A DNA stretch of 64,000 nt from Gemmobacter serpentinus (GTDB taxonomy: Bacteria; Pseudomonadota; Alphaproteobacteria; Rhodobacterales; Rhodobacteraceae): positions 124,001 through 188,000 of the forward strand of contig NZ_WCHR01000004.1 of NCBI RefSeq assembly GCF_008973825.1, in the 5' to 3' direction. Every line of letters starts with the position of its first letter. The first letter of the stretch is position 1. A program made the position numbers and the translations under genes. Shown in pieces: positions 11,390 through 27,572 of the stretch. The notes under the pieces are model-generated. The model was given only the letters and a program-made list of their open reading frames with translations. It was not told the origin of the DNA and searched no databases.

Positions 11390-11408
11390 TAGTTGTTATT
11401 GCTCGGTC

Positions 11409-12396: not shown

Positions 12397-12470
12397 GCGG
12401 GTGTAGCTCAATGGTAGAGCCGCAGCTTCCCAAGCTGATGACGAGGGTTCGATTCCCTTCACCCGCTCCA
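12397..12470 (+). tRNA. tRNA-Gly (anticodon CCC)
   Basis: A 74-nt cloverleaf with encoded CCA. The acceptor stem is GCGGGTG/CACCCGC, the D-arm GCTC-AATGGTA-GAGC, the anticodon loop TTCCCAA (CCC, reading GGG) and the T-loop TTCGATT. Its 3' 16 nt form the left end of the integrated element, and the gene remains intact after integration. Confidence 0.95.
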
Positions 12471-12471
12471 A
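12455..12471. repeat. attL: 17-bp direct repeat in the tRNA 3' end
   Basis: CCCTTCACCCGCTCCAA is identical to positions 27556–27572. It covers the T-arm/acceptor 3' half of tRNA-Gly, the classic target of P4-type integrases. Confidence 0.9.
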
Positions 12472-12527
12472 TCATCCAGCTAAGTAATTGAATTTGCTCG
12501 GTAATTATCCGGAATGCGATCCACGCT

Positions 12528-12551
12528 ATCCCATTGGCTAGCCAATGGGAT
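12528..12551. promoter_or_regulatory. perfect 24-bp palindrome next to attL
   Basis: ATCCCATTGGCT is followed immediately by its exact reverse complement. No T-run follows, so it is more likely a protein-binding site than a terminator. It contains GCTAGCCAA, which also occurs at 27431–27439 between attR and the integrase gene, so integrase or excisionase arm binding is possible. Confidence 0.5.
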
Positions 12552-12739
12552 GGTTCCGAATTGAAACGGGGTTTAATCGCGTTTAGCAGTGTATTCGGCA
12601 CCTGCCTATCGGTATTCCTGAGCCGCCCGAACCACTTTTGGGAACCGCGACAAGCCCTCTGGCCGTGTCGTTTTACACTGTTGCCCATGCCGTGCTCACG
12701 TCGGTATCTTGCCAGCATCGTGCTATCAGGGAGGCGGCC

Positions 12740-13291
12740 ATGTGCGGGCGCTTTGTTGATCCGAACCTGCGCAGCGAGGGGCTAGATACCTCTTGGCTAA
12801 AGATCACTCCCTTCCCCCGGCGCTTCAATGTGAAGCCGACGCAGGATGTACTGATCCTCGCAAAGCCCACGCTGGAGCCGCTGGTCGCCCGCTGGTGGCT
12901 TGTGCCCTCATGGTTCAAAGGCGAGGAGGCGAAGGGCTGGAAGGCTGCGACCTTCAACGCCCGGATCGAGGAGGCGAAGGAGAAACCGGCCTTTCGCGCC
13001 GTGTGGCGCTTTGGCCGATGCCTGATCCCGGCGGCAGGCTATTGCGAGTAGACGGGCGACAGAGGGGCCAAGCAACCGCATTTCATCTATCCGGCGGGCA
13101 ACGACGAAACCTTGTTCTTTGCCGGGCTAGCCTCCCGCTGGCACGACATGCTGACCTGCACCGTCCTGACCCGAGCCGCCAATGACACCACCGCCGACCT
13201 ACATCCCCGAATGCAGGTTATCCTGAACACCGAGGAGCGGGATGCATGGCTGGGCGGGGCGGATGATCTGGACCTCGGCGCCGGAGCGTAG
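12740..13291 (+). pseudogene. SRAP (HMCES/YedK) protein, broken by an amber codon
   Basis: It starts MCGRF, with the Cys2 that in this family forms a covalent bond with abasic sites in single-stranded DNA. NVKPTQDVLIL, ARWWLVPSWFKG, FNARIEEAKEKPAFR and RCLIPAAGYCE are typical SRAP segments. The reading frame is then stopped by TAG at 13049–13051 exactly where the family has Trp (YEW). Beyond it the same frame continues for 79 codons (TGDRGAKQPHFIYP…DLHPRMQVILNTEERDAWL) with the family's C-terminal elements, ending at 13291. A single TGG to TAG change explains it. The coding strand faces away from the rest of the element. The N-terminal fragment could still form the thiazolidine-type adduct, but the active-site His (LHPRM) is lost. 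Confidence 0.85.
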
Positions 13292-13658: not shown

Positions 13659-14486
13659 TTATGTCAATTCAATCAGATAAGCTGCCACAGTGTGGGCGCT
13701 GTGGATTGCCAGACGCGCATGTCTTGGTTTGATCACGTAGATTTTGGCCTGGCCGGACGATCTGCCATGCGCCGCGCTCTTCCGGTTCCGAATATACATG
13801 ATGCCGGTGACGATATTGTTGAGGCCAGAGCCGATGAGCTTGAGGTCTTTATCGTCCCAATCCTCAGAGTTCAGCCCCATTGCATCCGAGGCCAATTTCC
13901 AAAGAGGTGATAGCGTGTCCTTGTCGGTGAAGAGGATGTTCTTGTGGTCAAGATAGACCTTGATAGCTGCCTCAAGAACGTTGCCCGCATAGTGTGCCGC
14001 CGCGTGTGGATCTTCTTCGATCTGAGCCAAAGCACGGGTGATTTCTATCTCAACGGTAGAGAGGCCATGCTTCTTGACGTTCTCGAAGAGTGACAGCGTG
14101 GAGCTGGTGCCTGCTTTGACTATTGCCCCACCTTTGACGTAGGAGAACCCCTCTCGCCCAAGGGTCTCACGGATGTCCGCCTTACATTTCTCTAGCGCTA
14201 TCTCTTGTTCAGAGGGGGTCGTTTGGCCCCAAGACCGCGTATCCTTGGCGTCCTTCTCCATGAAGTCGTCAAGGATCACGCCCAGCACATTTATCGGGAA
14301 AGAACTGTGGGTGTTTGTCGCTCGCAGGCAGGCCACTACCGCCTTGGCTTTGCTCAACTCGGGGTCGCTAGCCGGTGTTCCGGCATAGAGAAATAGCGCG
14401 TCTTGACTGGCGCGCGTATAGTATTCAGGAATAATCCTTGAGAGCAGCCCAATCAGGCTAGTCGGAATTTTATCTTCATCTGCCAC
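13659..14486 (-). CDS. Abi_C-domain (HEPN-type) abortive-infection-like protein
   Basis: A 275-residue protein. The C-terminal ~140 residues match the abortive infection C-terminal (Abi_C) pattern: HAAAHYAGNVLEAAIKVYL, LWKLASDAMGLN, LIGSGLNNIVTGIMYIRN and the end HTVAAYLIEL. It includes R233-x6-H240 in RNRKSAAHG, the catalytic signature of HEPN ribonucleases. The N-terminal half is helical without a recognised domain. The start is taken as GTG at 14486 because TTAGGAGT lies directly upstream; an upstream in-frame ATG would overlap the preceding gene's end. It follows a membrane/coiled-coil gene by 55 bp on the same strand. A phage-triggered RNA-cleaving effector role is inferred. Confidence 0.75.
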   Translation of the reverse strand: MADEDKIPTSLIGLLSRIIPEYYTRASQDALFLYAGTPASDPELSKAKAVVACLRATNTHSSFPINVLGVILDDFMEKDAKDTRSWGQTTPSEQEIALEKCKADIRETLGREGFSYVKGGAIVKAGTSSTLSLFENVKKHGLSTVEIEITRALAQIEEDPHAAAHYAGNVLEAAIKVYLDHKNILFTDKDTLSPLWKLASDAMGLNSEDWDDKDLKLIGSGLNNIVTGIMYIRNRKSAAHGRSSGQAKIYVIKPRHARLAIHSAHTVAAYLIELT

Positions 14487-14541
14487 GCTAGGACTCCTAA
14501 ACCATCTGCCTGTTCTAAGGTGACTACTGAAGAGGATCGTC

Positions 14542-15579
14542 CTAGCCGTCTTTTCCAAGCATGATCTGGAGATTGGAGCGCCCCAACCTCACACTTTCGA
14601 TTGCATCCTGAAGCTGGGTGATGTCCCGAGCAATTTCTGCCTCTTCATCCGTTTCCAGCTTCGGCGGAGCGATCATGTCGATTTCTCCGCCTTTTTCCGT
14701 GAAGGCAAAGTATTTCTCGACTGACTTTTGAAGCTGGCCCTCAACTTCTTTGTTGATAGCTTTTCCAATCTGATTTTTCACATCGTTAACAGCTTCTGCG
14801 ACACCGGATGCCCTGATCGCTTCGGCTTGTTCCTTCATGGCATCTTCGATGGTTTTGTTAAGAACCTTCTTATGTCGAAGATCTTCGATGCCGTTGAGCA
14901 CATCTAGTACACTCTTAGCGATGGTGTTCACTCGCAATGCCAGGACGGCTAGCGTTGAGGCGATGGCAACCGTAGTTGCCAAAACGAGGATGAGAGAGCC
15001 TGTACCTGCGCCGATGATTCGAACATCCTCGGGCTTTTCTCCAACGGCTGCCGAAAGTCCGCGCGCAATTTCATACCACTCAGCCGACCACTTCTTGAGC
15101 TCAGCAACGTCACCAATGTTCGCTTTATCCTTGAAGTGAAGGCGAGTGACGATACCCTCATCAATGACGAATGGCCGTTGGACGGGTACGTTAGCGGCCT
15201 CCAAGGCTCTCTTCATACTATCCAGTTTGCTGACGGTCTCGCTGACCACTGTGTACGCGGCGCGAGCTTCTTCCCATGCCGTCACAGGATCAAAAGTATT
15301 GCTGCGCACTATCCTCTTAAAGCGGCTTAAGCCCTCCTTACCGAGGTAGGAAAGAGCGCCATTTGCCTTGAGCAGCTCAATCTGCTCTGAAGAGAGCTGT
15401 TCCATCGGCATCGCGGCGAGCATATTCTCAAGATCCTGCAGAGGCTCAGCGACAGCAGACTTCTGAGCGGCTCGGGCATTGTGCTCCAAGACGGATGCGA
15501 GATTGTCGTAGAGGCCCAAATTGGGAGCGACCTCTCGGTTCAGCCACACCGCAAGCCCGTACAGCTCATCAACGATCAT
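14542..15579 (-). CDS. unknown protein: single membrane segment plus coiled coil
   Basis: A 345-residue protein of no family I recognise. Residues 1–185 are helical and charged. One strong transmembrane segment is at about 189–214 (GAGTGSLILVLATTVAIAST). Residues 215–345 are predicted coiled coil, rich in K/E/D/A, ending in repeated acidic-basic heptads. An ATG with GGGGG 6 nt upstream gives the start. It is the first gene of a two-gene operon with the Abi_C/HEPN-type protein, so a membrane-anchored sensor or regulator of that effector is a reasonable inference. Composition is clearly more AT-rich than the host genes. Confidence 0.6.
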   Translation of the reverse strand: MIVDELYGLAVWLNREVAPNLGLYDNLASVLEHNARAAQKSAVAEPLQDLENMLAAMPMEQLSSEQIELLKANGALSYLGKEGLSRFKRIVRSNTFDPVTAWEEARAAYTVVSETVSKLDSMKRALEAANVPVQRPFVIDEGIVTRLHFKDKANIGDVAELKKWSAEWYEIARGLSAAVGEKPEDVRIIGAGTGSLILVLATTVAIASTLAVLALRVNTIAKSVLDVLNGIEDLRHKKVLNKTIEDAMKEQAEAIRASGVAEAVNDVKNQIGKAINKEVEGQLQKSVEKYFAFTEKGGEIDMIAPPKLETDEEAEIARDITQLQDAIESVRLGRSNLQIMLGKDG

Positions 15580-16441: not shown

Positions 16442-17311
16442 TTATTCCCCCTCGCATTGCGGGAACTGAAAATCTGAATCAGGCCGGATCAACACCTGAT
16501 AGGATGGAGTGGGCAGCCAGTTAAAAAGATTGACCGTGGTAAGGATTGCAGTTTCATCACTACCCCGCCTTACTAGCTTCTGGTGAGATACCCAGTGCAT
16601 GTCGTCTGTGATCTTATGCCTAGGACTGGCGCCGATAAATTCAGATGTGTCGGATTTACCCTCAAGAATATAATTCGAAATCTTGGAATCTCTTATGCTA
16701 ACATCAACAGATCGGATAGCTTCACATAAAGCAATCTTTGCTATGCATCTCTCTATGTCTTCCGAGTTAAATGTCACCCAGTTATCCTCCAGGTGCGCGG
16801 GAATGACCGAAGCCGGGGAATTTATAGCAACGAAGGAAACTGATCGCGTTTTGTGTCGATCATCCAAATCCTCTACGGACAAAGCTCGTGGAGGATAATC
16901 TGGATACACCAACAACAGACCAACCACCCCCTCCTCGATAGGGAGGTAAACTTTCTCGCCCGTAAGTGAATTAATTAATGTCCGCTTACCTGACCAAGAC
17001 CCATTCTTTCGCGCTTTCCGGCTTGGAAACTGGAGATATTCCCGTGTCAACTTGAAAGTATCTCGAAGGAGGCGCTGCTCAAATTGTTGAGTTTTCACTG
17101 CACAGGCTCTGCATGAGGCTTTCTTTAGCAATGCCACACCAAAAATGGCATACGGAATAGTGTGCTCATCCGTAAGATCGCGCGAACTGCCGCAGTATAC
17201 ACACTCATTAACAGTAGGACTTCTCGGGTTATCCGGCAAATATATCGTACCATCTCCTGGAATATTCCTACCTAGGCGGCCGGATATCTTAATTGGACCT
17301 TTGACGCTCAT
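16442..17311 (-). CDS. HNH-type protein, probable accessory/defence nuclease
   Basis: A 289-residue protein. Near residues 37–72 a zinc-finger/HNH-like module reads CVYCGSSRDLTDEHTIPYAI followed by a second Cys pair (SCRACA) and helix, the layout of restriction-associated HNH proteins with a C-x2-C…C-x2-C frame and the catalytic E-H (DEHTIP). The remainder has no recognised domain. The start at the ATG at 17311 follows GGAAGG; an upstream in-frame extension is Cys-rich and unlikely. This is the most AT-rich gene in the window, with codon use unlike the flanking genes, so it was acquired separately. Function in phage defence is inferred from location. Confidence 0.6.
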   Translation of the reverse strand: MSVKGPIKISGRLGRNIPGDGTIYLPDNPRSPTVNECVYCGSSRDLTDEHTIPYAIFGVALLKKASCRACAVKTQQFEQRLLRDTFKLTREYLQFPSRKARKNGSWSGKRTLINSLTGEKVYLPIEEGVVGLLLVYPDYPPRALSVEDLDDRHKTRSVSFVAINSPASVIPAHLEDNWVTFNSEDIERCIAKIALCEAIRSVDVSIRDSKISNYILEGKSDTSEFIGASPRHKITDDMHWVSHQKLVRRGSDETAILTTVNLFNWLPTPSYQVLIRPDSDFQFPQCEGE

Positions 17312-17504
17312 GTCACACGCCTTCCATCGCCATTTACGAAATTTAGACCCAAAGCAAACAATTCTCTGTTTTATTTTACAGACAGACCGACAGCCACATT
17401 GCAGATTCATTACGTCTAATTTGACGCAGGAACCGCAACCGCCCCCGCCGTGTAACAGAAGTGTTAACAAAACTATCTAGCTTCGAGAGAGATCAATTCG
17501 GACG

Positions 17505-18116
17505 CTACCTCCAATCGCGGTCAAGCCCCACGCTGATGATCGAAAGCCCGCGATCCCGCATCCGATAGGCTGTGGCGCGGGCAATGGTGCCCCTGCGCTT
17601 CACCGCCGCATCGAACGACACCCGGCGGGCCTTGCAACGCGCCCAGAGGCAGAGCATCCGCGCGCTGCCCTCATAGGCCGGATACAGGTAGACGGCGGGC
17701 CAGATCAGGGCGGCCTCATAAGCCGTGACCTGCGCCGCCGTGGCCTGCACCACCAGCCGCTTGCCGTCTCCCGGCTCGCCGTCTCCGGCCACCTCCGGCA
17801 GGCCCCAGCCCTCGTCTAGGTGGTCGTCCATCGTCGGGTTATAAGCGGGCATTGATCCCCGGATGCCCGCCGGGCCGACCGCGCCGCCGGAATAGGTGGC
17901 CCATCGCAGGGCCGCGACGAACCGCTCGCCCACCAGCTTTGGGGTCCAAGTATCAACGACTGGCGTAGGGATTTGCAGGATCGCCTGACGCCCCCGCAGG
18001 CGCTCGGCCCCACGGGCGACTGGCCCCGCCCGCTGGGCGTCCTCAGCGCGCATCTGGTCAAGGATCGACGCCGCCGCCCGGATCATGGCCTGCGGTCCGC
18101 CTGTCATCGCGTTCAT
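17505..18116 (-). CDS. DUF6362-like helix-turn-helix protein
   Basis: A 203-residue protein, last gene of the element's long minus-strand transcription unit. The C-terminal ~70 residues (YEAALIWPAVYLYPAYEGS, LCLWARCKARRVSFDAAV, ARATAYRMRDRGLSIISVGL) resemble the DUF6362/HTH proteins of alphaproteobacterial prophages, in which a 'WARA…W…ISRPTAHRR' helix pair probably binds DNA. The N-terminal half is low complexity. The start is the ATG at 18116, preceded by CAGGTGGG. The ~290 bp between it and the next upstream gene contain a small hairpin (GAACCGGGG…CCCGGCTC, about 18359–18384) and no clear gene. Confidence 0.5.
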   Translation of the reverse strand: MNAMTGGPQAMIRAAASILDQMRAEDAQRAGPVARGAERLRGRQAILQIPTPVVDTWTPKLVGERFVAALRWATYSGGAVGPAGIRGSMPAYNPTMDDHLDEGWGLPEVAGDGEPGDGKRLVVQATAAQVTAYEAALIWPAVYLYPAYEGSARMLCLWARCKARRVSFDAAVKRRGTIARATAYRMRDRGLSIISVGLDRDWR

Positions 18117-18406
18117 GGGTGTCCCACCTGCAATATGGATACCGACAGGATAGCGATACCGGGCAGCGAAAACAAATATGCCTGCGGCGTTGGCGGTCAT
18201 CCGCTGCATATGGGCCTTGTCAGCCTTCCTAATGCACGAGGGGCGGTGCCCTACCGGCGCTCCCTCTCGTGCTTGCCGATTACCGGCCCGTTCCCAGCAT
18301 CCCCGCCCCATTGCTGCGCCATCTCGGCGGCAATACCGGGGCTGATCAGCAGGAGCGATTGAGCCGGGTGTGATAACCCCGGTTCAGCGCCTTACGCCCC
18401 TAGCCA

Positions 18407-18730
18407 TCAGCCCTCACGCGCGGTCAGCTCGGCCATTTCAGCCCGGATCACGGATTGCAGGTGAACGACGGCAGCCTTAGCAGCAATGGACTTGCGAGCT
18501 TTCCACACATTTATGTGCGTAACCGAGAAGCGCGCGGCCTGCGCGGCTTTCGCCCTTGGCTCCCAATAAGCGGCGGCGGCCCGAAAGGCGGCGCCAAAGG
18601 TCAGGCGGGGGTCTCTGCGACCGTCTGGCAAAGCATGTGCGAGAAAGACGCCATAAGGGGTGCCGGGAAACAGGCGCTTGGCAGTGGGCAGGTCGATCAG
18701 GACGGCAAGGGCAGTGTGGCGTTCAGGCAT
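18407..18730 (-). CDS. small protein of the satellite operon, function unknown
   Basis: A 107-residue protein starting MPERHTALAVLIDL with its ATG inside the end of the upstream terminase-like gene (8-nt overlap). The sequence is Ala/Arg rich and helical, with FPGTPYGVFLAHALPDGRRD as the only non-helical stretch and 'AARFSVTHINVWKARKSIAA' resembling a recognition helix. Tight coupling to three small-terminase-like genes suggests a packaging or structural-interference role, but nothing in the sequence proves it. Confidence 0.5.
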   Translation of the reverse strand: MPERHTALAVLIDLPTAKRLFPGTPYGVFLAHALPDGRRDPRLTFGAAFRAAAAYWEPRAKAAQAARFSVTHINVWKARKSIAAKAAVVHLQSVIRAEMAELTAREG

Positions 18731-19112
18731 CCCGCATAATCCCATCGGCTTCGGCACGGGCAGCCCTGATCCGGGCCTGCGCCGCGCGGATCGCGGCGCG
18801 CCGGGCAGGATCAGCACGGCGCGCCATGCGGTCAAGGCGGAGAAGTGCGCGATCTTCCATGTCGAGGAGCTTCCGGCGCGTTCTGTCGTCAGCGCGGTTC
18901 GCGGTCGTGCTGGCGGTGGTGGAAGGCAGGTTGCGGGCATCGTTGCGCAGTGCAGCGACATACGCGACAACACAGGAAATCAGGCCAATCCGGCCCCTAA
19001 CCTGCTGCTCAATGTATTTGCCCCGGATCAGGGCGTGGAGGCGGTGCAGGGGAAGTCCAAGGAGGCGCGCGGCGTCTGCGGTTTTAACTTCATCGGGCGC
19101 GCGGGTGGTCAT
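18723..19112 (-). CDS. Nu1/TerS-like protein, copy 3
   Basis: A 129-residue protein. The N-terminal winged-helix segment, VKTADAARLLGLPLHRLHAL followed by IRGKYIEQQVRGRIGLISCV and VAYVAAL, has the layout of phage lambda Nu1-type small terminase DNA-binding domains: HTH, wing, then the helix that starts 'Y-x-AL'. The C-terminal half is a charged helix (ADPARRAAIRAAQARIRAAR) that could oligomerise. It lies last of three consecutive genes of the same layout, and its start codon overlaps the stop of the preceding copy by 1 nt. An alternative reading is a transcription factor of MerR-like fold. Confidence 0.5.
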   Translation of the reverse strand: MTTRAPDEVKTADAARLLGLPLHRLHALIRGKYIEQQVRGRIGLISCVVAYVAALRNDARNLPSTTASTTANRADDRTRRKLLDMEDRALLRLDRMARRADPARRAAIRAAQARIRAARAEADGIMRDA

Positions 19113-19612
19113 CAGGCCGTCCTCCCCTTCGTCGTCGGCGTGGACTTGGCAGGCTCGCTGGGCAGGACAGGCTCTGCTGTCGCGATGGCGTCTGCCAGTG
19201 CTGTCTGCGCATTGTGAAGGAGGTTCTCAATTGCCCGACGTTCACGCACGTCGCGGGTGGCGATTGCGGGCAAGGAGGCAAACTCGTGCAGGATAGTTCC
19301 GGCGATGGAGGTAGTCGCCTCATCGCCGGCGGCATCGGGAACGAGCTTTCCGGTCTCGATGTCGAGGGCAAGTTCGGAGGCTTCGGCTCGCGCCGCCCGC
19401 GCCTCGGTCTGTGCGGCGGTCAAGCGGGCATTCCGGGTGGTCGCCCGGATGCGGTCAAGGAAGGCGCGGACGCCTGAAACCAACGGCACCTGTCCGTCCC
19501 GCAGCACAATCTGGCGCGCCCGGATCAAGCCCTCAACCTCACCCGGCGATGCGCCGCAGATCGACCGGAAGGCATCAACCGTCACCAGCATTTCCGGGGG
19601 GCGTTCAGCCAT
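19112..19612 (-). CDS. Nu1/TerS-like protein, copy 2
   Basis: A 166-residue protein and the clearest small-terminase look-alike of the three. Its HTH reads LVTVDAFRSICGASPGEVEG, then the wing and joining helix (VPLVSGVRAFLDRIRATTRN). It continues with the family-typical long helix (RLTAAQTEARAARAEASELA) that ends in 'ETGKLVP', as in TerS proteins of prophages (…ERARLAKEQADxxALxNALxRGELVP). In phages this protein binds pac/cos DNA and recruits the large subunit. No large subunit is encoded in the element, so a helper's would have to be used. The start at 19612 overlaps the upstream stop by 8 nt. Confidence 0.6.
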   Translation of the reverse strand: MAERPPEMLVTVDAFRSICGASPGEVEGLIRARQIVLRDGQVPLVSGVRAFLDRIRATTRNARLTAAQTEARAARAEASELALDIETGKLVPDAAGDEATTSIAGTILHEFASLPAIATRDVRERRAIENLLHNAQTALADAIATAEPVLPSEPAKSTPTTKGRTA

Positions 19613-20099
19613 TGCCGCGCCCTCCCCGGAGGCCGTCCACAATCCGGGTTGCCTCAGTCTCGATCCGTGCAGCCGCGTTCCGAGCCGCAACGGCCAGCGC
19701 CTGAGCCGTGGCAGGGGAAACGTGCCCAGCAGCGTCGAGGCCCCGCAGGCAGGACGTAGCCGCCTCAGCGACCGTACGCACGATCAGTTCAGCCTCGGCG
19801 GCCTCGATCAGACCAGCCCGGCGCCGGGCAGTCGTGGCGCGGATGACCGATGCCCGCGCGATATGTTGCCGTGACTGGTCCGCATGCGCATCAGCGCGGG
19901 CGGTATCCTGTTTTAGAAAACGAGCGTAGCCGCTCACCGCAGAGGTTGCGGTGGTGAAGCCGCGCCGATGGACTGTGATGTGCCCGGCCCGAGCGACCTT
20001 CCTGAACATTTCGTCCGACACGCCAATCAAGCGCGCAGCTGTGGAAGTCGAAATTTCGTCGTGAAGGTCACGCACTGGGACTGGCCTGCGATACGGCAT
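19605..20099 (-). CDS. Nu1/TerS-like protein, copy 1
   Basis: A 164-residue protein. A 15-residue N-terminal tail precedes the HTH (EISTSTAARLIGVSDEMFRK), the wing (ARAGHITVHRRG) and the joining helix (SAVSGYARFLKQDTARADAH), followed by long Ala/Arg/Glu helices. It has the same architecture as the two genes downstream but low identity, so the trio is either an old tandem duplication or successive acquisition. An internal GTG at 20075 could be the true start, because the ATG at 20099 overlaps the upstream gene by 32 nt and has no clear ribosome-binding site. Confidence 0.5.
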   Translation of the reverse strand: MPYRRPVPVRDLHDEISTSTAARLIGVSDEMFRKVARAGHITVHRRGFTTATSAVSGYARFLKQDTARADAHADQSRQHIARASVIRATTARRRAGLIEAAEAELIVRTVAEAATSCLRGLDAAGHVSPATAQALAVAARNAAARIETEATRIVDGLRGGRGNG

Positions 20100-20793
20100 C
20101 AGCGCCCGCTGCCTGATTGACGCCAGCGACAGCCCTTTTCCACATCGCCGCCGACCGTTCGGTCTTGCTCATATGCCCGCCGCCCGAAAGATCGGCACCA
20201 AAATCGCCCGCGTCTAGGCTGCGCTGCTCAAGCGATTGCCAGATTTTGGACTGTTCAACGGGCATGGAAGCGAGAAGCGGCGCGATCTGCGCAGCGGTCA
20301 GGCCCTCGCCATCATCCTCAAGGATGAGGGCTGCTGTGGCTTTCGTCCGCCCGTGCGCTTCGGACGAGGCAAACGCCCGTCTGATCCTTTCGCGTTCGGC
20401 CTGCGCAGCGGCACCGCCAAAGCTCGCGGCGCCGGGCATGGCCGTTGCGGCGACATCGGCTACCCGGTCGGTCGGTAGGCAGGCCAGCGCCTGAGAAATG
20501 GCAGCGGCAGAGAGCGGCGCCGACAACGCAAAGCGGAGTGCCTGCAACGGCCTGCCGCAATCGACCCCGGCCCGGTATGCGGATCGAATACGCGCACGTT
20601 CTTGCATGGCTTCAGCATGAGAGGCGGCAGCCTCCGCTTCGCGGAGTTCATCGGCTTCGATCTGAGCCTCGATGCGGCGACGCTCAGCGGCACGGGCGGA
20701 ACCGGTCAGCGCGCAAGAAGCGAGGGCTGCGTCCACAGCGGCAGCCCGTCGCCGACATGCCTCATTGCTCAAGTCCAGTGCGGATTTTGTCAC
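20068..20793 (-). CDS. helical protein with duplicated motif, function unknown
   Basis: A 241-residue protein starting at GTG 20793 with GAGGAA 5 nt upstream. Two related stretches, ALRFALSAPLSAAAISQALA and ALILEDDGEGLTAAQIAPLL, each followed by a short 'LP/MP' turn, recall the repeated C-terminal helices of phage head maturation protease/scaffold proteins. That resemblance is pattern-based and weak. The N-terminal 90 residues are a charged coiled coil. The start overlaps the previous stop by 4 nt. Confidence 0.5.
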   Translation of the reverse strand: MTKSALDLSNEACRRRAAAVDAALASCALTGSARAAERRRIEAQIEADELREAEAAASHAEAMQERARIRSAYRAGVDCGRPLQALRFALSAPLSAAAISQALACLPTDRVADVAATAMPGAASFGGAAAQAERERIRRAFASSEAHGRTKATAALILEDDGEGLTAAQIAPLLASMPVEQSKIWQSLEQRSLDAGDFGADLSGGGHMSKTERSAAMWKRAVAGVNQAAGADAVSQASPSA

Positions 20794-20921
20794 TTTGTTT
20801 CCTCGGTTTGGGGGGCAGCCGGGGCGGATGCGGCGGCTCGAAATTGTTCGGCGGCGCGACGCAGGAGTGCGACGGCAGCGGGTCGGTCGGACAGATCGGG
20901 GGGCGAGGTTCTGGTGGTCAT
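20790..20921 (-). CDS. small 43-residue protein of the satellite operon
   Basis: MTTRTSPPDLSDRPAAVALL and the following helix RRAAEQFRAAASAP form a short amphipathic protein. The stop overlaps the next gene's GTG by 4 nt (GTGA), which supports translation. No known family. It is the first gene after a 385-bp gap, so it may open a second transcription unit leading into the terminase-like genes. Confidence 0.45.
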   Translation of the reverse strand: MTTRTSPPDLSDRPAAVALLRRAAEQFRAAASAPAAPQTEETK

Positions 20922-21306
20922 GGAGGCCTCGGGACTGGGGGTTGAAGGTTGGGCTGGCGCGCAACCCAACTCGAATTTTCGCAAGCACAGAAAGGCTGAA
21001 GGCCGGGGCCAATGCCTTGCCGCCTCGGAGGGGGCCTGCCCTAAGGTCCCTTAAAGGCGTGGCATGCCCGCAGGACTCGCGAGACGACCGTTGCAGGGGC
21101 CTTGGGCCTTTCCGGGCGGGTCAAGGGCGGGAATGCGCGCGCCCCTGTAGCGCCCCAGCACCGCGCCTGTGGCGGTGCCGGGGGCTGGTCGGCCCGCCCG
21201 CAGGGACGAGGGGCCGGAGTGCGGGCGGACATCGCGGCGAGCGCCGGGGGCGCCGTGGTGCCACGATTACGGCGACGAAAGGGACGCCTGCCCGCCCGCG
21301 CATGGA
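20922..21306. other. 385-bp non-coding region inside the element
   Basis: The only long break in the backbone gene chain. It contains a short inverted repeat (TTGGGCT…AACCCAA, about 20951–20971), a second imperfect hairpin (AGGGGGCCTGCCC / AAGGTCCCTT) and very GC-rich sequence. It probably carries the promoter for 20921–17505, and it is a candidate place for a packaging-recognition or small-RNA function. A 63-codon frame exists here but looks like a composition artefact. Confidence 0.4.
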
Positions 21307-21894
21307 TCAGACCTGCGGCAAGGCGACGGCGGCAGCCAACAACGCATAGGCCGGTGCATCGCGGCGGCGGATGACCGCAAGGCCACTCCCTTCCATTTCC
21401 CGAACAAGGCGCTCCTCAGCGAGGCAGAGGCTGTGCAGTTCGGCCTCGGCCAGCGCGATCTGGGCGGCGCGCTGGTCCGGTGTCAGCCCCTGACGCCCGC
21501 CGAGCAGGTCGTCAATTTGGTCCGAAACGATTTCGCGAAGCCGGTCGCGGCAGCCGAGGAAAATCAGGCCGGTCAGCATTTCGAGAGCCGGTTGGTGGAT
21601 GGGCTGCGCCCCGGCCATGACGGTATCGATATGCAGACCCCGCGCGGATGCCTGAGCCTCAAGAAGGCGCCCGATGGGCAGTCGGTCCACAGCCTTGGTC
21701 GCGGCTTGATCCGCCCACGCATCGAAGGCGGTCAGTGCCGCCTCGCGGGTCTGCGGCGCCATGCGAATAGTTTCGATTTCGCGGGCCTTTTTGGCGATCT
21801 CGATACGGACAGCCTCAAGGGCGTCGTGGGTGGATGCGGCGGCGGCGCGCTGCCGTCCAAAGGATTTCAGAAGATCACCGAGCACGGCGGGCAT
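21307..21894 (-). CDS. unknown protein, prophage-type
   Basis: A 195-residue protein starting MPAVLGDLLKSFGRQ, its ATG inside the upstream gene (20-nt overlap). It is mostly helical: two charged helices, then a hydrophobic central segment (PALEMLTGLIFLGCRDRLRE) and a C-terminal module (AQIALAEAELHSLCLAEERL, then GLAVIRRRDAPAYALL). The last part resembles small prophage proteins that pair 'EALxxxAEAxGxxVxRRxDADPxAVL', whose role is unknown. Confidence 0.5.
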   Translation of the reverse strand: MPAVLGDLLKSFGRQRAAAASTHDALEAVRIEIAKKAREIETIRMAPQTREAALTAFDAWADQAATKAVDRLPIGRLLEAQASARGLHIDTVMAGAQPIHQPALEMLTGLIFLGCRDRLREIVSDQIDDLLGGRQGLTPDQRAAQIALAEAELHSLCLAEERLVREMEGSGLAVIRRRDAPAYALLAAAVALPQV

Positions 21895-22267
21895 CCTCCA
21901 TGTCAATGCCGACCGGGATCGGGAGGTTCTCGGCTTCCGCAAGTTCGAGGGCGCTGCGGAGGTTGATCCGTGCCGATGCGGCGGCATCGGCGGATGCCTC
22001 GACCTCGGCCTCGGCTTCGGAGATTTGGGCAGCCAGCCCGGCAGCCTCGGTGCGAAGTTCCGCTATCTGCGGCGCAGCGTAGATGTGAGGATCGCTGACG
22101 GTTCGGCCTTCGAGATGCGCGAGCCGAGCCAGCGTGTCGTTGCTTTTGTCGCGTAGACCATGCAGCCGGTCGTTCAAACCTGTGGTCGTAGCGCGGTGCT
22201 GGCGAGCGATGCGGTCGAGGACGGCGAGGCGGGCCGGGTCTAGTTGCATATCTGGGATGGGCGGCAT
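21875..22267 (-). CDS. coiled-coil protein, function unknown
   Basis: A 130-residue protein starting MPPIPDMQLDPARL with AAGGAG 9 nt upstream. Residues 20–115 are an almost continuous coiled coil (LRTEAAGLAAQISEAEAEVE). The tail IPVGIDMEDARRAR overlaps the next gene. No recognised family. Such proteins in phages and satellites are often scaffold-like or regulators, which remains speculation here. Confidence 0.5.
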   Translation of the reverse strand: MPPIPDMQLDPARLAVLDRIARQHRATTTGLNDRLHGLRDKSNDTLARLAHLEGRTVSDPHIYAAPQIAELRTEAAGLAAQISEAEAEVEASADAAASARINLRSALELAEAENLPIPVGIDMEDARRAR

Positions 22268-22343
22268 GAGACGGCTCCTTTCGTTGGAGCCAAAATCGGC
22301 GGCGCGGATCGGAAATCGCTGCGCCGCCAAATTCCGATGCCAA

Positions 22344-23237
22344 TCAGCCCTTGAGAATGTGCACGAGGGTCTTTGTGTCGGTCGGGAATGCGCCGCCCGG
22401 CGCGGCTTCCAGCTTGCTAAGCCGAAAGAATGACGCACGGGGTTGGTCAGCAGGGGCGCGGCCTTCGCGCCCGGCTTCGCTGCGGGCACAATCATGAGCG
22501 AAGCCCGTCGCGCAATACTTGGAAAACCCCTCCAACAACAATCGCGCTGCGGTATATGGCCGCGCGTCTCGCCACTCGGGAACGGAGGCCCGAGCGGTTC
22601 GGATCAGAGCATCTCGGCGCCGCTTTGCAATCGCCGGGGCGGCAGTCGTTCCGCTTGCAGGTTGAAGGCCCATCAGGCGTCCCAGCGGGATCACCCGACC
22701 GTCAAGGTCCGTGTCGCCCCGCAGGATCGCCTCGCCCGCCTCAATGCCCCGTGCAGCTAGCGCCCTTACCGCCGGGTCAATGGACATCTGTGACCATTCC
22801 ATCATGGCGAACCAATCATCGAGCAGATGGGCGGCACCCTTCCCGCGCAGCACCTCTGGCCCGTCCGGCGCATAGAGGCCGCCAGTTCGGTATGCGTCGA
22901 GATATCTGCCCGTCTTGCGCCACGCCCGATCAGGATCGCCTGCAAGCGTGGTTGTGCCGGGCGGATCGACTGGAGGCGGGCCGGGCGGCAAAGGCGGCAC
23001 AGCGGTCGAAGCCTGTTCGACCAGATCGCTCAGGGCGGCATCTGACATGACCGCCCGTCGTTGCCGGACAGAAGGTGCCTTGACGGGCGTGGCGTCCAGC
23101 GCAGCCGCAATTTGCGCTGGATCGAAATCCAGCGCGAATAGGATGCCGTCGATGAGGGCTGTCCGATCTTCCGCTCTGCGGCCCGCAAGGGTCGCGCGCA
23201 GAGCGGTTTGCAACTGACTGGTTGCGGTTGGCGTCAT
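22344..23237 (-). CDS. unknown 297-residue protein
   Basis: Its ATG overlaps the upstream stop by 4 nt (ATGA). The N-terminal ~90 residues are helical, followed by a Pro-rich spacer (AVPPLPPGPPPVDPPG) and a compact C-terminal domain (DAYRTGGLYAPDGPEVL, LLDDWFAMMEWSQMSIDPAV, RLLLEGFSKYCATGF). I do not recognise a family. Its position directly after the initiator-like gene suggests a replication or copy-control function. Confidence 0.5.
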   Translation of the reverse strand: MTPTATSQLQTALRATLAGRRAEDRTALIDGILFALDFDPAQIAAALDATPVKAPSVRQRRAVMSDAALSDLVEQASTAVPPLPPGPPPVDPPGTTTLAGDPDRAWRKTGRYLDAYRTGGLYAPDGPEVLRGKGAAHLLDDWFAMMEWSQMSIDPAVRALAARGIEAGEAILRGDTDLDGRVIPLGRLMGLQPASGTTAAPAIAKRRRDALIRTARASVPEWRDARPYTAARLLLEGFSKYCATGFAHDCARSEAGREGRAPADQPRASFFRLSKLEAAPGGAFPTDTKTLVHILKG

Positions 23238-23563
23238 AGCGTGCGCCCTTTTGCGGAGAAGACGATGACCTGTGCAACCGGGCGAGGTGGTTGTTTTGAC
23301 CGCTCCTCCGCGATCAACCGGCGCGTTTCGGAGGTGAGGCGGGCGATCACGGCGGCAGTCACTGCGGTGTCATGAACGCCGCGTTCATTGAGTGCGGCGC
23401 GGGCGCCGAAAATATGCGCAGCCCATAGCTGTTTTGCGGTTCCCGTGTCGCCCTTGGCGAGCAGACGCACGAGGCGAGACGAGATGGACTGCGGTCGATG
23501 GCGTGGGAGAAGCGCTTCCATCGTGGCAGCGGTGACCGCGATTTTTTCAGAACCGTACGACAT
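23234..23563 (-). CDS. small protein following the initiator-like gene
   Basis: A 109-residue protein, start MSYGSEKIAVTAATMEALLP, 17-nt overlap with the end of the upstream initiator-like gene and 4-nt overlap with the next. It is helical and basic (RPQSISSRLVRLLAKGDTGT, VIARLTSETRRLIAEERSKQ). No family recognised. Possible replication accessory protein by position only. Confidence 0.5.
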   Translation of the reverse strand: MSYGSEKIAVTAATMEALLPRHRPQSISSRLVRLLAKGDTGTAKQLWAAHIFGARAALNERGVHDTAVTAAVIARLTSETRRLIAEERSKQPPRPVAQVIVFSAKGRTL

Positions 23564-24764
23564 TCACGACCTCCAAGATTTCAGGGGTTGCAAGGCCGCC
23601 CTTTGTTTCTTCCGCCGCTTCGGGTGCATACTCCGGGAATGCTCCGATAAAGGCCGACACGGCAGTCTTCGGATCAATCGCGCCGGGTGCGGCCCGATGC
23701 GCCTTCTGGGCAATCGCGCGCAGGCAGTCAGCCAGCTCTTGCAGGTGCTCTCTGGGCGTTATGCGGTCTTCGTCAAGGAGCGCGGCCAGCGGGGCCAGAG
23801 CCGAAGCTACACCATCAACTACAAACCGGCGCTGCTTTCCATCGCGGCGCATGAAACCTGAAACATAGGCGACCGCCAAATCGTGGGCAGTCATCCTGTG
23901 TTGCGCACCTTCGGCAGTAGCGAAGGCCATCGCACAGGAAAGTCGTTCAATATCGTCCACCGCAAGACCGAGTTCTGCGAGACCAGTCTTCCGACGAGCC
24001 GTATGACCGGGCGCGGAACGCGCGCCCGGATCAGCCCCAATCGTGTGGTCAGCCGCACGACCAAGTTTCCCGGAGAAAGCTCGCTGAGTGCTGCCAGTCG
24101 CGAAGTCAGGATCGGAACGCCACGCGTCGGGATCAGCGGGATCGACGGAAGCGGCAAGAGGCTCCTCAAGAGCCTCGCTGCCGTTTTCTGCTGCCGCGTC
24201 GGTTTCCAAATGGCGATCTTCACTCTCGATAATTACGGAATAAACATCTTTTATAGAATTGGCGGGCGCGCCCTTAGGCGCGCGCCCGCCTTCCAAAGAT
24301 TTCTTTCTAGTAATGGTCCCCGATTTTTCGGGGGAAACCTTCCCCGATTTTTCGGGGGAAACCTCCTTGAGAGGCTTAGTGGTATTACCCGATTTTCCGG
24401 GTGAAACCCTAAGGCAAGTTTTCACCGATTTTTCGGGGGAAACTGCATCGGGGATCGACATCACATAAGTGTTGGCGAGCCGCCCACCGTTCTCTCCGCT
24501 GGTGGCCTTCGGTGTCTCGGCAATGAGCAGATACTCCCGCGCCCGGAAGCGGCCAAGCGACGCCTCAGCGGTGCTTTCTTCGCACCGCATCAAGTCTGCG
24601 AGGCGTCGCGCGGACATAAAGAACCGAAAGTCGTCACCAACAATTTCGATAAAGAAAAGCGCGGCGAATGCGTCCCGCGGCTTCATCTCGGGATCGCGTT
24701 TGAGGGCATCGAGGAAGGTAAATATGAACGTGGCCTTTTGCGACTTAGGGTTGCTACCATTCAT
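23547..24764 (-). CDS. replication-initiator-like protein with internal repeats
   Basis: A 405-residue protein. Residues 10–95 look like a winged-helix replication domain as in phage O/DnaD-type initiators: AFAALFFIEIVGDDFRFFMS, ARRLADLMRCEESTAEASLG and RFRAREYLLIAE. A 45-residue linker (about 107–149) contains four copies of V-S-P-x-K-S-G encoded by nearly identical 24-bp DNA repeats. The acidic middle is probably disordered, and the C-terminal ~150 residues are helical (VDDIERLSCAMAFATAEGAQ, HDLAVAYVSGFMRRDGKQRR). Placing origin iterons inside the initiator gene is the arrangement of phage lambda O. Function is inferred from that layout. Confidence 0.6.
   Translation of the reverse strand: MNGSNPKSQKATFIFTFLDALKRDPEMKPRDAFAALFFIEIVGDDFRFFMSARRLADLMRCEESTAEASLGRFRAREYLLIAETPKATSGENGGRLANTYVMSIPDAVSPEKSVKTCLRVSPGKSGNTTKPLKEVSPEKSGKVSPEKSGTITRKKSLEGGRAPKGAPANSIKDVYSVIIESEDRHLETDAAAENGSEALEEPLAASVDPADPDAWRSDPDFATGSTQRAFSGKLGRAADHTIGADPGARSAPGHTARRKTGLAELGLAVDDIERLSCAMAFATAEGAQHRMTAHDLAVAYVSGFMRRDGKQRRFVVDGVASALAPLAALLDEDRITPREHLQELADCLRAIAQKAHRAAPGAIDPKTAVSAFIGAFPEYAPEAAEETKGGLATPEILEVVNVVRF
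24317..24445. repeat. four iteron-like 24-bp repeats inside the initiator-like gene
   Basis: Copies at 24317–24340 and 24341–24364 are identical and directly abutting; variant copies are at 24386–24409 and 24422–24445. The core on the plus strand is CCCCGATTTTTCGGGGGAAA, which itself has dyad symmetry (CCCCGA…TCGGGG). The surrounding sequence is locally AT-richer. The repeats are in frame and encode V-S-P-E-K-S-G. DNA conservation extends through wobble positions in copies 1 and 2, which favours selection on, or recent duplication of, the DNA. Confidence 0.75.
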
Positions 24765-24898: not shown

Positions 24899-25068
24899 GT
24901 CTGTGCCTCCTGCTTGCCGCCCGTGGGCGGCGTGTTTCCATCCGGCTCTCCAATCAGAAAAGTTTGCCTCGCACCGAATGCGGGCAGGCCTTGACAGATT
25001 GATGTGATGTCCTGCTGTTGTCCACCCGGAGAGCCTACGCGGGGCCACCAGCGGCCCCGTAGCCGCGA

Positions 25069-25241
25069 TCAGGCGCAGATGCGTGCGGCCTCCCAAGCCT
25101 CAAGATCTTCGAGGCGAAACCGGACACAGCCGGGGGAGAGTTGGACGGGCTTGGGAAAAGATGGATCGACCTTGCGCCAGCGCCAAACGGTCGTTCTGGT
25201 CACGTTGTAGCGTTCGCCAACTGTTTATCGGTGAGAAACAT
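25069..25241 (-). pseudogene. AlpA-like HTH regulator, 1-bp frameshift
   Basis: From the ATG at 25241 the reading is MFLTDKQLA, then after loss of one base (about 25215) the second frame continues ERYNVTRTTVWRWRKVDPSF, PKPVQLSPGCVRFRLEDLEA, WEAARICA and a TGA at 25069. The rebuilt 57-residue protein is a textbook AlpA/phage-regulatory HTH: 'LTDKQLAERYNVTRTTVWRWRKxDPxFPKPVxLSPGxxRFRLxDLEAWE'. The second frame has no start codon of its own. AlpA proteins activate excision or satellite operons. Either the gene is dead and the element is locked in, or the base is a sequencing error. Confidence 0.75.
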
Positions 25242-25344
25242 TTTGCACCCATTTCGTTGCGGATGCCCACCAACTTGAACATATTAAAAGCTATGGCAAA
25301 ACCTTTCGGTAACTCCACGGGAACGCAGGGTAGTTATGAAAAAC

Positions 25345-26022
25345 TCAGAGCTTTCGCAGATCGGCCAGAAGCCCCGCCATACCGGGGACCGGCGCTCCGG
25401 TGACATGCTCAGCAACGATGGCAATGAAGGCCGCGAAGCCTTTGTCGCCGCTAGAGTTTCCACCAAGCGGGATACCAGCCGCGCGGAAGATCGGGACAAT
25501 TGCCTCGCCAAACACTTCGACAGGCTTCTTTCTCAGGTTCGCTGTATAACTACCGCGTCCACCGGCCTTTTCTGGCATGCCCTCAATTTCATCTAGTACC
25601 TCGTCTACTGCTGAAAGGACCTCGCTATGAAGCAAATCGAAGAGCGAGCCTACGAATGTTGCAGTGAGTTGATCCAAATCTCCCCCCTCCGCGACCAGCT
25701 GAAGCCCGCGTGTATCATTGATTAGGCCGACGACCTCGCCACGGATGCGCCGGGCCCGTTCAATAAGGGCCTCCACTTCTGGGCGCGACCATTCCCGGGG
25801 TATTCCCACGGTCGCAATTTCCCCCCGCCACACCCCGACTCGAGCCTCGATCTCAGCCCTCCAGTCGTCATTGTCGCACAATCTGGCGAGCCGCCCGTCA
25901 GATGCGATAACGCGCTCCCACAATGGACGCAGAGCTTCATCCTTTGCCGCCTTGGCACGCTCACCGGCAAGGACAAGAGCGGCGACCAGCCGCGTTCCGT
26001 CCTCAGGATTGAGGTCTGTCAT
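25345..26022 (-). CDS. unknown protein coupled to the integrase
   Basis: A 225-residue protein; ATG at 26022 overlaps the integrase stop by 4 nt. Charged helical N-terminal half (LVLAGERAKAAKDEALRPLW, RPEVEALIERARRIRGEVVG) and a Gly-rich C-terminal part (FRAAGIPLGGNSSGDKGFAA, FIAIVAEHVTGAPVPGMAGL). No family recognised. Co-transcription with integrase suggests a role in excision or element stability. The following 103 bp hold no gene and lead into the AlpA-like remnant. Confidence 0.5.
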   Translation of the reverse strand: MTDLNPEDGTRLVAALVLAGERAKAAKDEALRPLWERVIASDGRLARLCDNDDWRAEIEARVGVWRGEIATVGIPREWSRPEVEALIERARRIRGEVVGLINDTRGLQLVAEGGDLDQLTATFVGSLFDLLHSEVLSAVDEVLDEIEGMPEKAGGRGSYTANLRKKPVEVFGEAIVPIFRAAGIPLGGNSSGDKGFAAFIAIVAEHVTGAPVPGMAGLLADLRKL

Positions 26023-27344
26023 GCTCGCACCGCCGGAAAGGCGACCACAGTGCTCGTGTCCCCCCCCTCGATGAAGTCGGCCCATGCCTGCATCATCGCC
26101 CGGCGCCGCTCCACCATGTCGGTTCGACGATAGGCTCGCTCAACTGCGCTTCCAACCTGATGCGCGAGCGCGATCTCAGCCATTTCCCGGTCATATCCGC
26201 TCTCGGCGGCCCAATCACGAAACACGCTGCGTAGACCATGCGGCACTGCCGCCCTACCGCTGCGGGGATCGCGCCACCCGGCTTTATCCGGATCGTTACC
26301 CGCTTCTTTAGCGGCGGCTTCCGCTTCCTCTTGCATCCGACGCATGACAGCGGACACGCTCATATCAGACAGCATTTTGCCGGTGACACTTGGAAAGACA
26401 AAAGGAACGTCTAACATCTTCGGAAGCGTCTCAAGCAGGGCAATTGCCGAAGGCGAAAGAGGAACGCGGTGCTCACGGTCCATTTTCATCCTCTCCTTCG
26501 GAATCACCCACATCCGAGCTATCAGGTCGATTTCATCCCACCTCGCACCCCGAACCTCGCCTGAGCGGCTGGCGCAAAGGGCCGCGAACCTCAAGGCGAG
26601 CGCGCCCTGCCCGTCGCGCAGGCAAAGCTCGGCCCACCATGCTGGAACGTCCGTGAGTGCCAACGCGGGAAAGTTGCCAACCTTTCCCTTCTCGACCACG
26701 CTCGGAGCAGGCAGCAATTCCTTAAGATTGCCGCCCCATCTGGCCGGGTTGTCACCTGCCCTGTGCCCCGCGACCGTCGCCCACGACAAAATCCCTTCAA
26801 GGTAGCTGCGGAGCTTTTGGCCCGTGTCGGGCTTGCCGCTCCATACGCCACCCAAGGCTCGCACGATGTCCTGCACGGTGATTTCCTGCACAGACAGCGC
26901 TCCGATCTCCGGTAACGCATATCGGGTGATCGTGGACCGGATCGCTTTCTGTGATTTTTCCGGTCGGTGGGTCATCTTCGCGGCAACCCATTTCTCCATC
27001 GCATCGGAAAATAGAAGGGTCCGAGCCGATGCCGCCGCCAGCGCAGCGCGGACGGCCTTGCGCTCTTCGATAGGATCAACGCCAGCTTCGATCTTCGCCT
27101 TGGCCTCTCGCGCCTTATCGCGCGCGGCGGCAAGACCGATTTCGGGATATGGGCCAAGACCGATGGCTCGGCGCGTGGTGCCAACCGTTGTCCGCAAGAG
27201 CCAGCTTTTCGTCTGGCCGGGTGTGATCTGCAGAAGCAGGCCAGCCACGCCACCAACCGCGAACCATTCGTTGCGATCTTTCGTCCCACTGTGAACCGCC
27301 CGCTTCACATCAAGCGCGCCCCATTCCTTCGCCCGCTTCGGCAT
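26019..27344 (-). CDS. int: P4-type tyrosine recombinase (integrase)
   Basis: A 441-residue protein. N-terminal DUF4102 arm-binding domain (GVAGLLLQITPGQTKSWLLR, RRAIGLGPYPEIGLAAARDK), core-binding helices, and the catalytic domain with CASRSGEVRGARWDEID (first Arg), HGLRSVFRDWAAESG (His near 369 and Arg), ALAHQ (His near 395) and the nucleophile Tyr near 405 in ERAYRRTD. All catalytic residues are present. The gene starts about 210 bp from attR and reads into the element. The enzyme would recombine the 17-bp tRNA-Gly repeat. Confidence 0.95.
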   Translation of the reverse strand: MPKRAKEWGALDVKRAVHSGTKDRNEWFAVGGVAGLLLQITPGQTKSWLLRTTVGTTRRAIGLGPYPEIGLAAARDKAREAKAKIEAGVDPIEERKAVRAALAAASARTLLFSDAMEKWVAAKMTHRPEKSQKAIRSTITRYALPEIGALSVQEITVQDIVRALGGVWSGKPDTGQKLRSYLEGILSWATVAGHRAGDNPARWGGNLKELLPAPSVVEKGKVGNFPALALTDVPAWWAELCLRDGQGALALRFAALCASRSGEVRGARWDEIDLIARMWVIPKERMKMDREHRVPLSPSAIALLETLPKMLDVPFVFPSVTGKMLSDMSVSAVMRRMQEEAEAAAKEAGNDPDKAGWRDPRSGRAAVPHGLRSVFRDWAAESGYDREMAEIALAHQVGSAVERAYRRTDMVERRRAMMQAWADFIEGGDTSTVVAFPAVRA

Positions 27345-27555
27345 ATGTCTCCTCCTCCATCATCCAAGGGGAGACCGGGTTATATTCCCAATTCTGGAAT
27401 AGAACTGACCCAAAGCGCGCTAGCCGCCCCGCTAGCCAAAAACTTTGCGACAAAATGCAATTTCACGCAATAGGATGTGGCCGAAAATATCCATAACCAC
27501 TTGATTTATTGAAACAATGCAACGGATCGCAACGGAGTAAAAATGGCTCTTGGCG

Positions 27556-27572
27556 CCCTTCACCCGCTCCAA
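27556..27572. repeat. attR: 17-bp direct repeat
   Basis: CCCTTCACCCGCTCCAA, identical to the tRNA-Gly 3' end at 12455–12471. Between attR and the integrase start, GCTAGCC occurs at 27419–27425 and 27431–27437 (12-bp period), possible arm-type sites. Confidence 0.9.

Follow-up and report, generated by a model that had tools for sequence, protein, structure and literature searches.

A putative helper-dependent phage satellite in the tRNA-Gly(CCC) gene of Gemmobacter serpentinus and an apparently undescribed family of related elements in Rhodobacterales

Tycheposons and VEIMEs are marine elements, associated with tRNA genes or with virions, that carry phage packaging genes. Most of the satellite families described so far are from Firmicutes, Gammaproteobacteria, and Vibrionaceae (PMC10803314). 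The phage-inducible chromosomal islands (PICIs) of the Staphylococcus aureus pathogenicity island (SaPI) type integrate site-specifically, possess their own small terminase subunit (TerS) and accessory genes, and have no large terminase subunit (TerL) or capsid gene (PMC6092414, PMC12409344). The Gram-negative PICIs, such as EcCICFT073, have an integrase, a unidirectional gene order, and lambda-type helpers (PMC6092414), and the phage-inducible chromosomal minimalist islands (PICMIs) combine an integrase and AlpA with defence cargo at one end (PMC10803314). We found the same traits, with lambda-type helpers as candidates, in a group of elements that includes one in a 64,000-nucleotide stretch of Gemmobacter serpentinus (contig NZ_WCHR01000004.1; hereafter the window). 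As judged from its sequence, the 15.1-kb element at 12455-27572 is very probably an integrated, helper-dependent satellite of a separate Rhodobacterales-associated family, by which capsid size and packaging would be redirected. Coordinates refer to the window, and the genes of the element lie on the minus strand unless stated otherwise.

The tRNA-Gly(CCC) site of the window is a real insertion. The tRNA gene, detected by ARAGORN at 12397-12470 on the plus strand, shares its 3' end with a perfect 17-bp repeat that forms the attachment (att) core on the tRNA side (12455-12471, plus strand) and again on the integrase side (27556-27572, plus strand); the 64-kb window contains these two matches and no third, even with two mismatches allowed, and 0.02 matches are expected by chance. 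The right flank was searched in ten other genomes of the genus, and in six of them the full tRNA gene (74/74 identical) adjoins right-flank sequence without the island. In three others (G205, G203, and G198; loci L080, L081, and L085), the flank is preceded by the 3' part of tRNA-Gly(CCC) alone, so other elements probably occupy the site there, and the tenth gave no informative match. In G205, the sequence just inside the att site resembles that of the window element. At the end opposite to the tRNA stands an intact tyrosine integrase of 441 aa (26019-27344) with matches to the Pfam domains Arm-DNA-bind_3, Phage_int_M, and Phage_integrase, from which a run of minus-strand genes extends. The repeats and the intact integrase agree with a preliminary description of this sequence, and so does its single minus-strand operon insofar as the genes mostly overlap, but gaps exist, for example from ~20778/21012 to 21307. 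A promoter scan found 0 promoters against 4.6 expected, and the terminator-like sites are at chance level.

The genes of a self-sufficient phage, stated to be missing in the same description, were indeed not found: none of 18 open reading frames (ORFs) scanned from the window element matched a large terminase, portal, capsid, tail, or lysis family of Pfam or PHROGs at E 0.01, and two tail families at E 0.2-0.5 are at chance level. Across the 13 elements of the family described below, 155 ORFs of at least 220 aa were considered, of which 11 were integrases, 56 were left out (scanned singly, already identified, or resembling out-of-frame shadows), and 88 were scanned. The 25 Pfam families matched by these 88 at E 0.001 include no large terminase, portal, or capsid, and neither do the 25 PHROGs listed of 55 matched. 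Lysis genes are often shorter than 220 aa, and their absence was looked for in the window only. Integrated, provided with an integrase, and devoid of the genes for a complete virion, the element has the gene content expected of a satellite in general.

We used the p226 gene (21307-21894) as a probe for relatives. Among 394 genomes of the family, eight matched a two-sequence p226 profile (one of the eight was rejected), as did one IMG/VR contig and one genome contig, that of Cereibacter azotoformans ka25 (L024). A nine-sequence profile matched 7 of 390 genomes of the order, all seven in the same family, and 2 of 289 genomes of the class, namely the genome of the window itself and a contaminated outlier that was not counted. 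Genome G380 (L030; p226 match at E 8.6e-4) and contig C37 of G182 (L004/L009; TerS match at E 9.9e-4) were rejected with no other element gene, G214 (L070) was not counted despite a p226 match at E 1e-12 (3.4-kb contig, genome 7% contaminated), and L044 was dropped as lying on the same contig as L023. After removal of such repeats and rejects, 13 elements remained: that of the window, L008, L023 to L029, and L066 to L069. L029 and L068, on short contigs, are counted among the 13 but cannot show missing genes. Among the 11 elements in genomes with kinship information, each is in a different genus.

Three core genes, p297 (22344-23237), p206 (21875-22495, true start probably downstream), and the family marker p226, are adjacent in that order in each of the 13 elements. 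Hidden Markov models (HMMs) based on six elements each were made for p297 and p206 and match 13 of 13, the weakest match being p206 of L069 (E 1.6e-4), and p226 is present in the nine elements of alignment A4 and in L066 to L069, thus in all. In most members, the triad is followed by a scaffold-like gene, the small-terminase-like genes, and p268; in L026, the terminase gene comes before the scaffold. Nine elements are bounded on both sides by directly repeated copies (15-19 bp) of a tRNA 3' end: at tRNA-Gly(CCC) in the window, L008, L024, L027, and L067, at tRNA-Glu in L026 and L028, at tRNA-Ser in L066, and at tRNA-Met in L069. The same gene order at the tRNA sites of other strains, which the preliminary description had suggested looking for, was observed. 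L025 shows no direct repeat beside its nearest tRNA, and there is no tRNA on the contigs of L023, L029, and L068. The nine bounded elements measure 15118, 14099, 13866, 12341, 15079, 12849, 14468, 14408, and 8095 bp, so that eight are 12.3-15.1 kb long and the remaining one 8.1 kb.

The triad appears foreign to the phages compared. A search with the L008 p226 protein against 50,697 phage records and 72,556 plasmids found no match, and p297 of L008 has none in the phage records; the predicted structure of p226 (helical; predicted local distance difference test score, pLDDT, 72) has no viral match at E 0.001. The situation differs for p268 (17505-18311; PHROG 6836, E 4e-17), which is found in 10 of the 13 elements but also in phages and IMG/VR loci; the window protein is 52% identical over 148 aa to that of phage Mae-JY30. 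In L008, p268 is split across two frames (L008:12213-12796). The predicted structure of p268 (pLDDT 77) has no match in the PDB, and a p268 search of the genome-contig collection returned nothing useful. Among 15 IMG/VR loci found via p268, some of them short fragments, TerL was seen in nine and TerS in 11, p226 and p206 in none, and p297 in one, weakly (L056, E 6e-6). This contig (2675903164_000003, 15984 bp) carries a serine-recombinase-like gene, p268, a tape-measure-like gene, and the weak p297 match, and is perhaps a distant member of the satellite family. Homologues lying consistently inside complete prophages had been named as the mark of a deletion remnant; for the triad, none were encountered: p226 and p206 occur in no phage locus compared (the 15 IMG/VR loci, many of them fragments, Mae-JY30, and the prophage stretches), and p297 occurs weakly in the doubtful L056.

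Three small-terminase-like genes had been proposed for the window element, of which two match PHROG 57, "terminase small subunit": TerS1 (19112-19690, E 4e-10) and TerS2 (19605-20099, E 4e-4). The third, TerS3 (18723-19112), is a short terminase-like helix-turn-helix protein that has no PHROG TerS match and resembles TerS by BLAST only, with similarity to the Mae-JY30 TerS (E 2e-5) and to its two neighbours. In alignment A6, the TerS1-type proteins keep the C-terminal TRD-motif segment of the Mae-JY30 TerS, and the TerS2 and TerS3 types are without it. TerS-like genes were found in seven of 13 elements, two or three in tandem in six members, and their relatives adjoin TerL in Mae-JY30 and in IMG/VR phage contigs. 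Searches with TerS1 in IMG/VR and the phage records, and with the L008 TerS in the phage records, yielded nothing useful, and a VopS-like NCBIfam match to TerS1 was rejected as chance (18 bits against a cut-off of 364).

Upstream of TerS2, p314 (20068-21012, with homology from ~20778 down) encodes a scaffold-like protein, and a scaffold or gpC-type gene is present in nine of 13 elements. The seven scaffold-only proteins (alignment A10) align by hhalign to the C-terminal end of the seven gpC-type proteases (alignment A11), at columns 357-468 of 469 with a probability of 98.1 and E 6.5e-14. Furthermore, the p314 relative L008:7149-7937 matches PHROG 17040, head maturation protease (E 9e-7), and L024 and L025 have a full-length protease, 50% and 46% identical to that of Mae-JY30 over 385 and 432 residues, respectively; the L024 protease matches PHROG 53. 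Other virion parts are distributed unevenly: a lambda gpD-type decoration protein in L008 (PF02924, E 2e-30), a baseplate hub or tail X gene in L008 and L024, a tail completion gene in L026, and a tail fibre, a tail protein, and a tape measure in L023. The window element has TerS and the scaffold and no recognizable tail gene. The L023 fibre (L023:5372-7078) is 90% identical over 463 aa to L077:15205-16704 on contig C5 of G051, in a lambda-head prophage region with the gpD gene ~10 kb away; G051 also hosts L008. Such identity between a satellite and a prophage region in the host of another satellite suggests recent exchange.

The replication-initiator-like gene (23547-24764) shows 28% identity across 142 aa (E 3e-6) to the gene of L026. 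The window protein itself matches no Pfam or PHROG family and is the positional counterpart of an L008 gene that matches HTH_36 and O-like PHROGs. Four iterons with dyads (for example, CCCCGATTTTTCGGGG) lie inside the gene at 24317-24445 and form a putative origin, which agrees with the initiator and iterons noted in the preliminary description. The gene of lambda O likewise holds its origin within itself. All seven O-like initiator genes examined contain in-gene repeats, mostly dyads, 317-630 nt past the start codon; the repeat sequences vary among element groups, and their position within the initiator is similar. A strict automatic test, demanding at least three copies of a 16-mer with a dyad, was passed by six of the seven O-like initiators, by 6 of 140 other ORFs, and by 0 of 140 codon shuffles; the six other ORFs include the L066 initiator candidate and three L068 frames. 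L028 and L067 have an AAA-type ATPase in place of the O-like initiator. Searches with the initiator found the genome of the window only among 101 relatives and nothing useful in IMG/VR. Next to the initiator, the small gene p109 (23234-23563) has relatives in L008, L024, and L027, a cluster of four elements.

The window integrase is 77% identical to the L027 integrase and 68% identical to that of L008. A tyrosine integrase is present in 12 of 13 elements (L069 judged by eye from the sequence); L025 has a serine recombinase instead, 59% identical to that of Mae-JY30. AlpA, which EcCICFT073 carries as well, was found in nine of 13 elements but not in L024; in L027 and L067, its frame and those of the core genes are intact. 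In the window, the AlpA-like regulator proposed earlier is recognizable in sequence (~25069-25246; HMM match of the main piece at E 6e-28), but a break close to the start disrupts its reading frame. Between AlpA and the integrase, a gene without a family in Pfam, PHROGs, or PADLOC overlaps the 3' end of int (25345-26085). A second tyrosine-recombinase-like gene (L027:4715-6265) lies in the cargo of L027, an element that also holds an intact SRAP-like gene.

The elements differ in several respects from the described systems. Unlike SaPIs, the elements have a scaffold of the lambda gpC/Nu3 kind, tandem TerS genes, in-gene iterons, and other core genes; the size switch by a scaffold mimic would, by analogy, be shared (PMC6092414, PMC12409344). 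No SaPI-named family turned up in the general scans, in which SaPI proteins were not compared directly. EcCICFT073 is without TerS (PMC6092414), whereas the window element has it. The core genes share the strand of int, as in the unidirectional Gram-negative PICIs, but PICIs have their origin directly beyond the 3' end of the replication gene, where two sets of iterons flank an AT-rich stretch (PMC6092414), and the repeats here are inside the initiator in seven of seven cases (a second set 3' of the gene was searched for in the window only). No Pfam, PHROG, or NCBIfam match pointed to PICI genes, no PICI reference set being compared, and PICI membership was rejected because the features tested are present only in part. 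The PICI/P4-like composition claimed earlier holds for the satellite gene set; the names PICI and P4 are not supported. The psu, delta, sid, and alpha genes of P4-like satellites have no counterpart by name in the Pfam and PHROG scans, in which P4 proteins were not compared directly. The capsid-forming PICIs (cf-PICIs) and the Streptomyces satellites (PMC10690885) resemble the elements in the head maturation protease, here in two members, and the tail fibre, here in one; a cf-PICI, which would have its own capsid, portal, protease, and both terminase subunits, was rejected with the protease in 2 of 13, TerS-like genes in 7 of 13, and no capsid, portal, or TerL found in any member. The PICMI model, whose prototype consists of six genes, requires int, alpA, and a DUF3987/DUF5906 primase (PMC10803314); no such primase family was matched in the window element, and this assignment was rejected as well. 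In the open-licence literature available, partly as titles and abstracts, no report of such an element was found for Rhodobacteraceae, Rhodobacterales, or Rhodobacter, and the family is apparently undescribed; a paper matching Roseobacter deals, by its title and the opening of its abstract, with a virus-like marine element.

The lambda-head phages, Mae-JY30 and its IMG/VR relatives, possess homologues of the TerS, gpC, gpD, tail X, tape measure, and p268 genes of the elements, and Mae-JY30 resembles L025 in its serine recombinase. They differ in having TerL, portal, and capsid genes (annotated in Mae-JY30; TerL in the nine IMG/VR loci mentioned) and in having neither p226 nor p206. Mae-JY30 (PP438422; L007/L014) is annotated as a Microcystis phage, while its p268, TerS, and recombinase genes are closely related to those of the Rhodobacterales satellites; its host assignment may be worth re-examining. 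In the genome of the window, a prophage on contig C8 has a GpA terminase, gpC, gpD, and gpE, and contig C11 has a second GpA terminase with a TerS related to the satellite TerS group (HMM E 3e-10). Both prophage candidates are possible helpers, as far as gene content tells. Exact words of at least 15 bp between the element and the two candidates revealed no convincing shared packaging site.

In the mechanism that we infer for induction, helper, and packaging, a helper with a lambda-type head (TerL-GpA, gpC, gpD, and gpE), be it a phage or a prophage, would turn active, AlpA and the integrase would excise the island, and the O-like initiator would bind the iterons in its own gene to start replication. 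The p314-family proteins, which match the scaffold part of gpC-type proteases and have no protease part, would compete with the helper scaffold and lead to smaller shells. This step rests on the published precedent of the SaPI protein CpmB, which mimics the helper scaffold and gives small shells, and of Rcm, proposed to act likewise (PMC12409344). TerS1 and TerS2, and in the window TerS3 too, would steer the helper large terminase to satellite DNA, and the shell, portal, tail, and lysis functions would come from the helper. Other members would substitute further single helper parts with their own copies, and the host would benefit from the defence genes carried by the island, in the window an AbiJ-like gene.

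The same locus might be read as a deletion remnant, a phage stripped of its late genes and decaying at the tRNA site, which we regard as very unlikely. The broken AlpA and SRAP frames of the window and the split p268 of L008 would fit such decay, and the terminase, scaffold, tail, and p268 genes have phage relatives, yet the core order and the size range, like the absence of TerL, portal, and capsid, recur across the 13 elements, and the three core genes are foreign to the phages compared save for the weak p297 match in L056. Relatives of TerS, scaffold, and p268 in TerL-bearing phages are expected if these genes were taken from the helper type. In addition, the ratio of nonsynonymous to synonymous substitution rates (dN/dS) is below 1 (0.05-0.61) in all 27 sequence pairs measured, values with dS above 1 being unreliable, which indicates that the family genes are probably under selection. 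A prophage remnant was rejected because none of the phage loci and prophage stretches compared, many of them fragments in the case of IMG/VR, has the core genes in the order seen here. That the element is instead a defence island or another non-phage integrative element, in which the TerS-like proteins are regulators and p314 an unrelated coiled-coil protein, seems to us highly improbable: such a view could draw on the AbiJ-like, Mrr-like, and type III restriction-modification cargo and on the missing C-terminal segment of TerS2 and TerS3, but members hold genes that clearly belong to virions (those for gpC protease, gpD, tail fibre, tape measure, and baseplate hub), and TerS1 retains the full TerS layout. 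A variant within the satellite reading has rather more to recommend it, though we still think it unlikely: capsid size would not change, a multimer would be packaged in full-size shells, as in the PICMI precedent (PMC10803314), and the scaffold would merely interfere with the helper. The lack of a visible scaffold in L066 and L069 agrees with full-size shells; the scaffold or gpC-type gene in nine elements and the 12.3-15.1 kb of eight of the nine bounded elements, which would be ~1/3 of a lambda-type genome, speak for a smaller shell.

Several observations weigh against the helper-dependent satellite with small shells. No cos or pac site was identified, p268 is absent from the searched stretches of both prophage candidates, and the scaffold HMM matches neither. 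The decoration-protein family was detected in 5 of the 12 satellite genomes and in 33 of the 198 family genomes (Fisher p 0.04, with two shared genomes removed from the second group), so that lambda-head prophages are only weakly more frequent in satellite hosts than the base rate. L025, L027, L028, and L069 showed no TerS, and L066 and L069 no scaffold, some bounded members among them, so neither is essential to the family. The L026 initiator does not pass the strict test for iterons, the window contributes to the dN/dS pairs with its integrase only, and PADLOC returned no defence match for 5 of the 10 cargo ORFs submitted, among them those of L027 and L067. Because the AlpA frame is broken and the SRAP-like gene has an in-frame stop, the window copy may be decaying. 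Nevertheless, the conserved core in 13 elements, the tRNA repeats in nine, the vacant sites in six of ten genomes, and the lack of TerL, portal, and capsid support the satellite reading put forward in the preliminary description.

Variable genes, some of them for defence, sit at the end distal to the integrase. In the window, this cargo comprises the SRAP-like gene (12740-13291, plus strand), which clusters with a gene of the L027 element; an Abi_C/AbiJ-like defence gene (13659-14558; Pfam PF14355, E 1e-15; PADLOC AbiJ, E 2e-12); an overlapping gene without a convincing Pfam or PADLOC family that is a possible partner (14542-15579); and a gene matching no Pfam or PADLOC family (16442-17470). 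SRAP is also a Pfam match among the 88 family ORFs. In other members, we found a PDC-S45 protein (L008), an Mrr-like PDC-S02 protein with an HNH gene (L028), and a type III restriction-modification pair (L066). An ORF without a Pfam or PHROG match and with an uncertain start lies at 18407-18973, between p268 and the TerS genes. To the left of the tRNA and outside the att sites, a C5 cytosine methyltransferase (PADLOC DruM2-like, E 8e-153) overlaps a GIY-YIG gene at 10244-12125 and looks like a separate restriction-modification-like pair.

A distinct family at Rhodobacterales tRNA genes would widen the range of satellites, and the p297-p206-p226 triad offers a sequence handle for finding more members. 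The varying sets of defence genes at these tRNA sites may stem in part from the defence slot. The scaffold gene, matching the end of a lambda-type protease, would tie the hijacking of capsid size to a well-understood assembly protein, and its homology predicts small shells. The members with a tail fibre, a tape measure, or a baseplate hub raise the question of whether a chromosomal satellite can alter the tail as well as the head, for which the Streptomyces MiniFlayer, with its own tail fibres, is a precedent (PMC10690885). Tentatively, and as a possibility that we rate below an even chance, the family might have a slot for swappable copies of helper late genes and not one fixed tool: a Nu3/gpC-type scaffold mimic would remodel the capsid, an own protease or decoration protein would sometimes be added, and in some members the tail would be changed by an own tape measure, baseplate hub, or tail fibre. 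If this is true, the satellite would determine how large the stolen particle is and also its target range.

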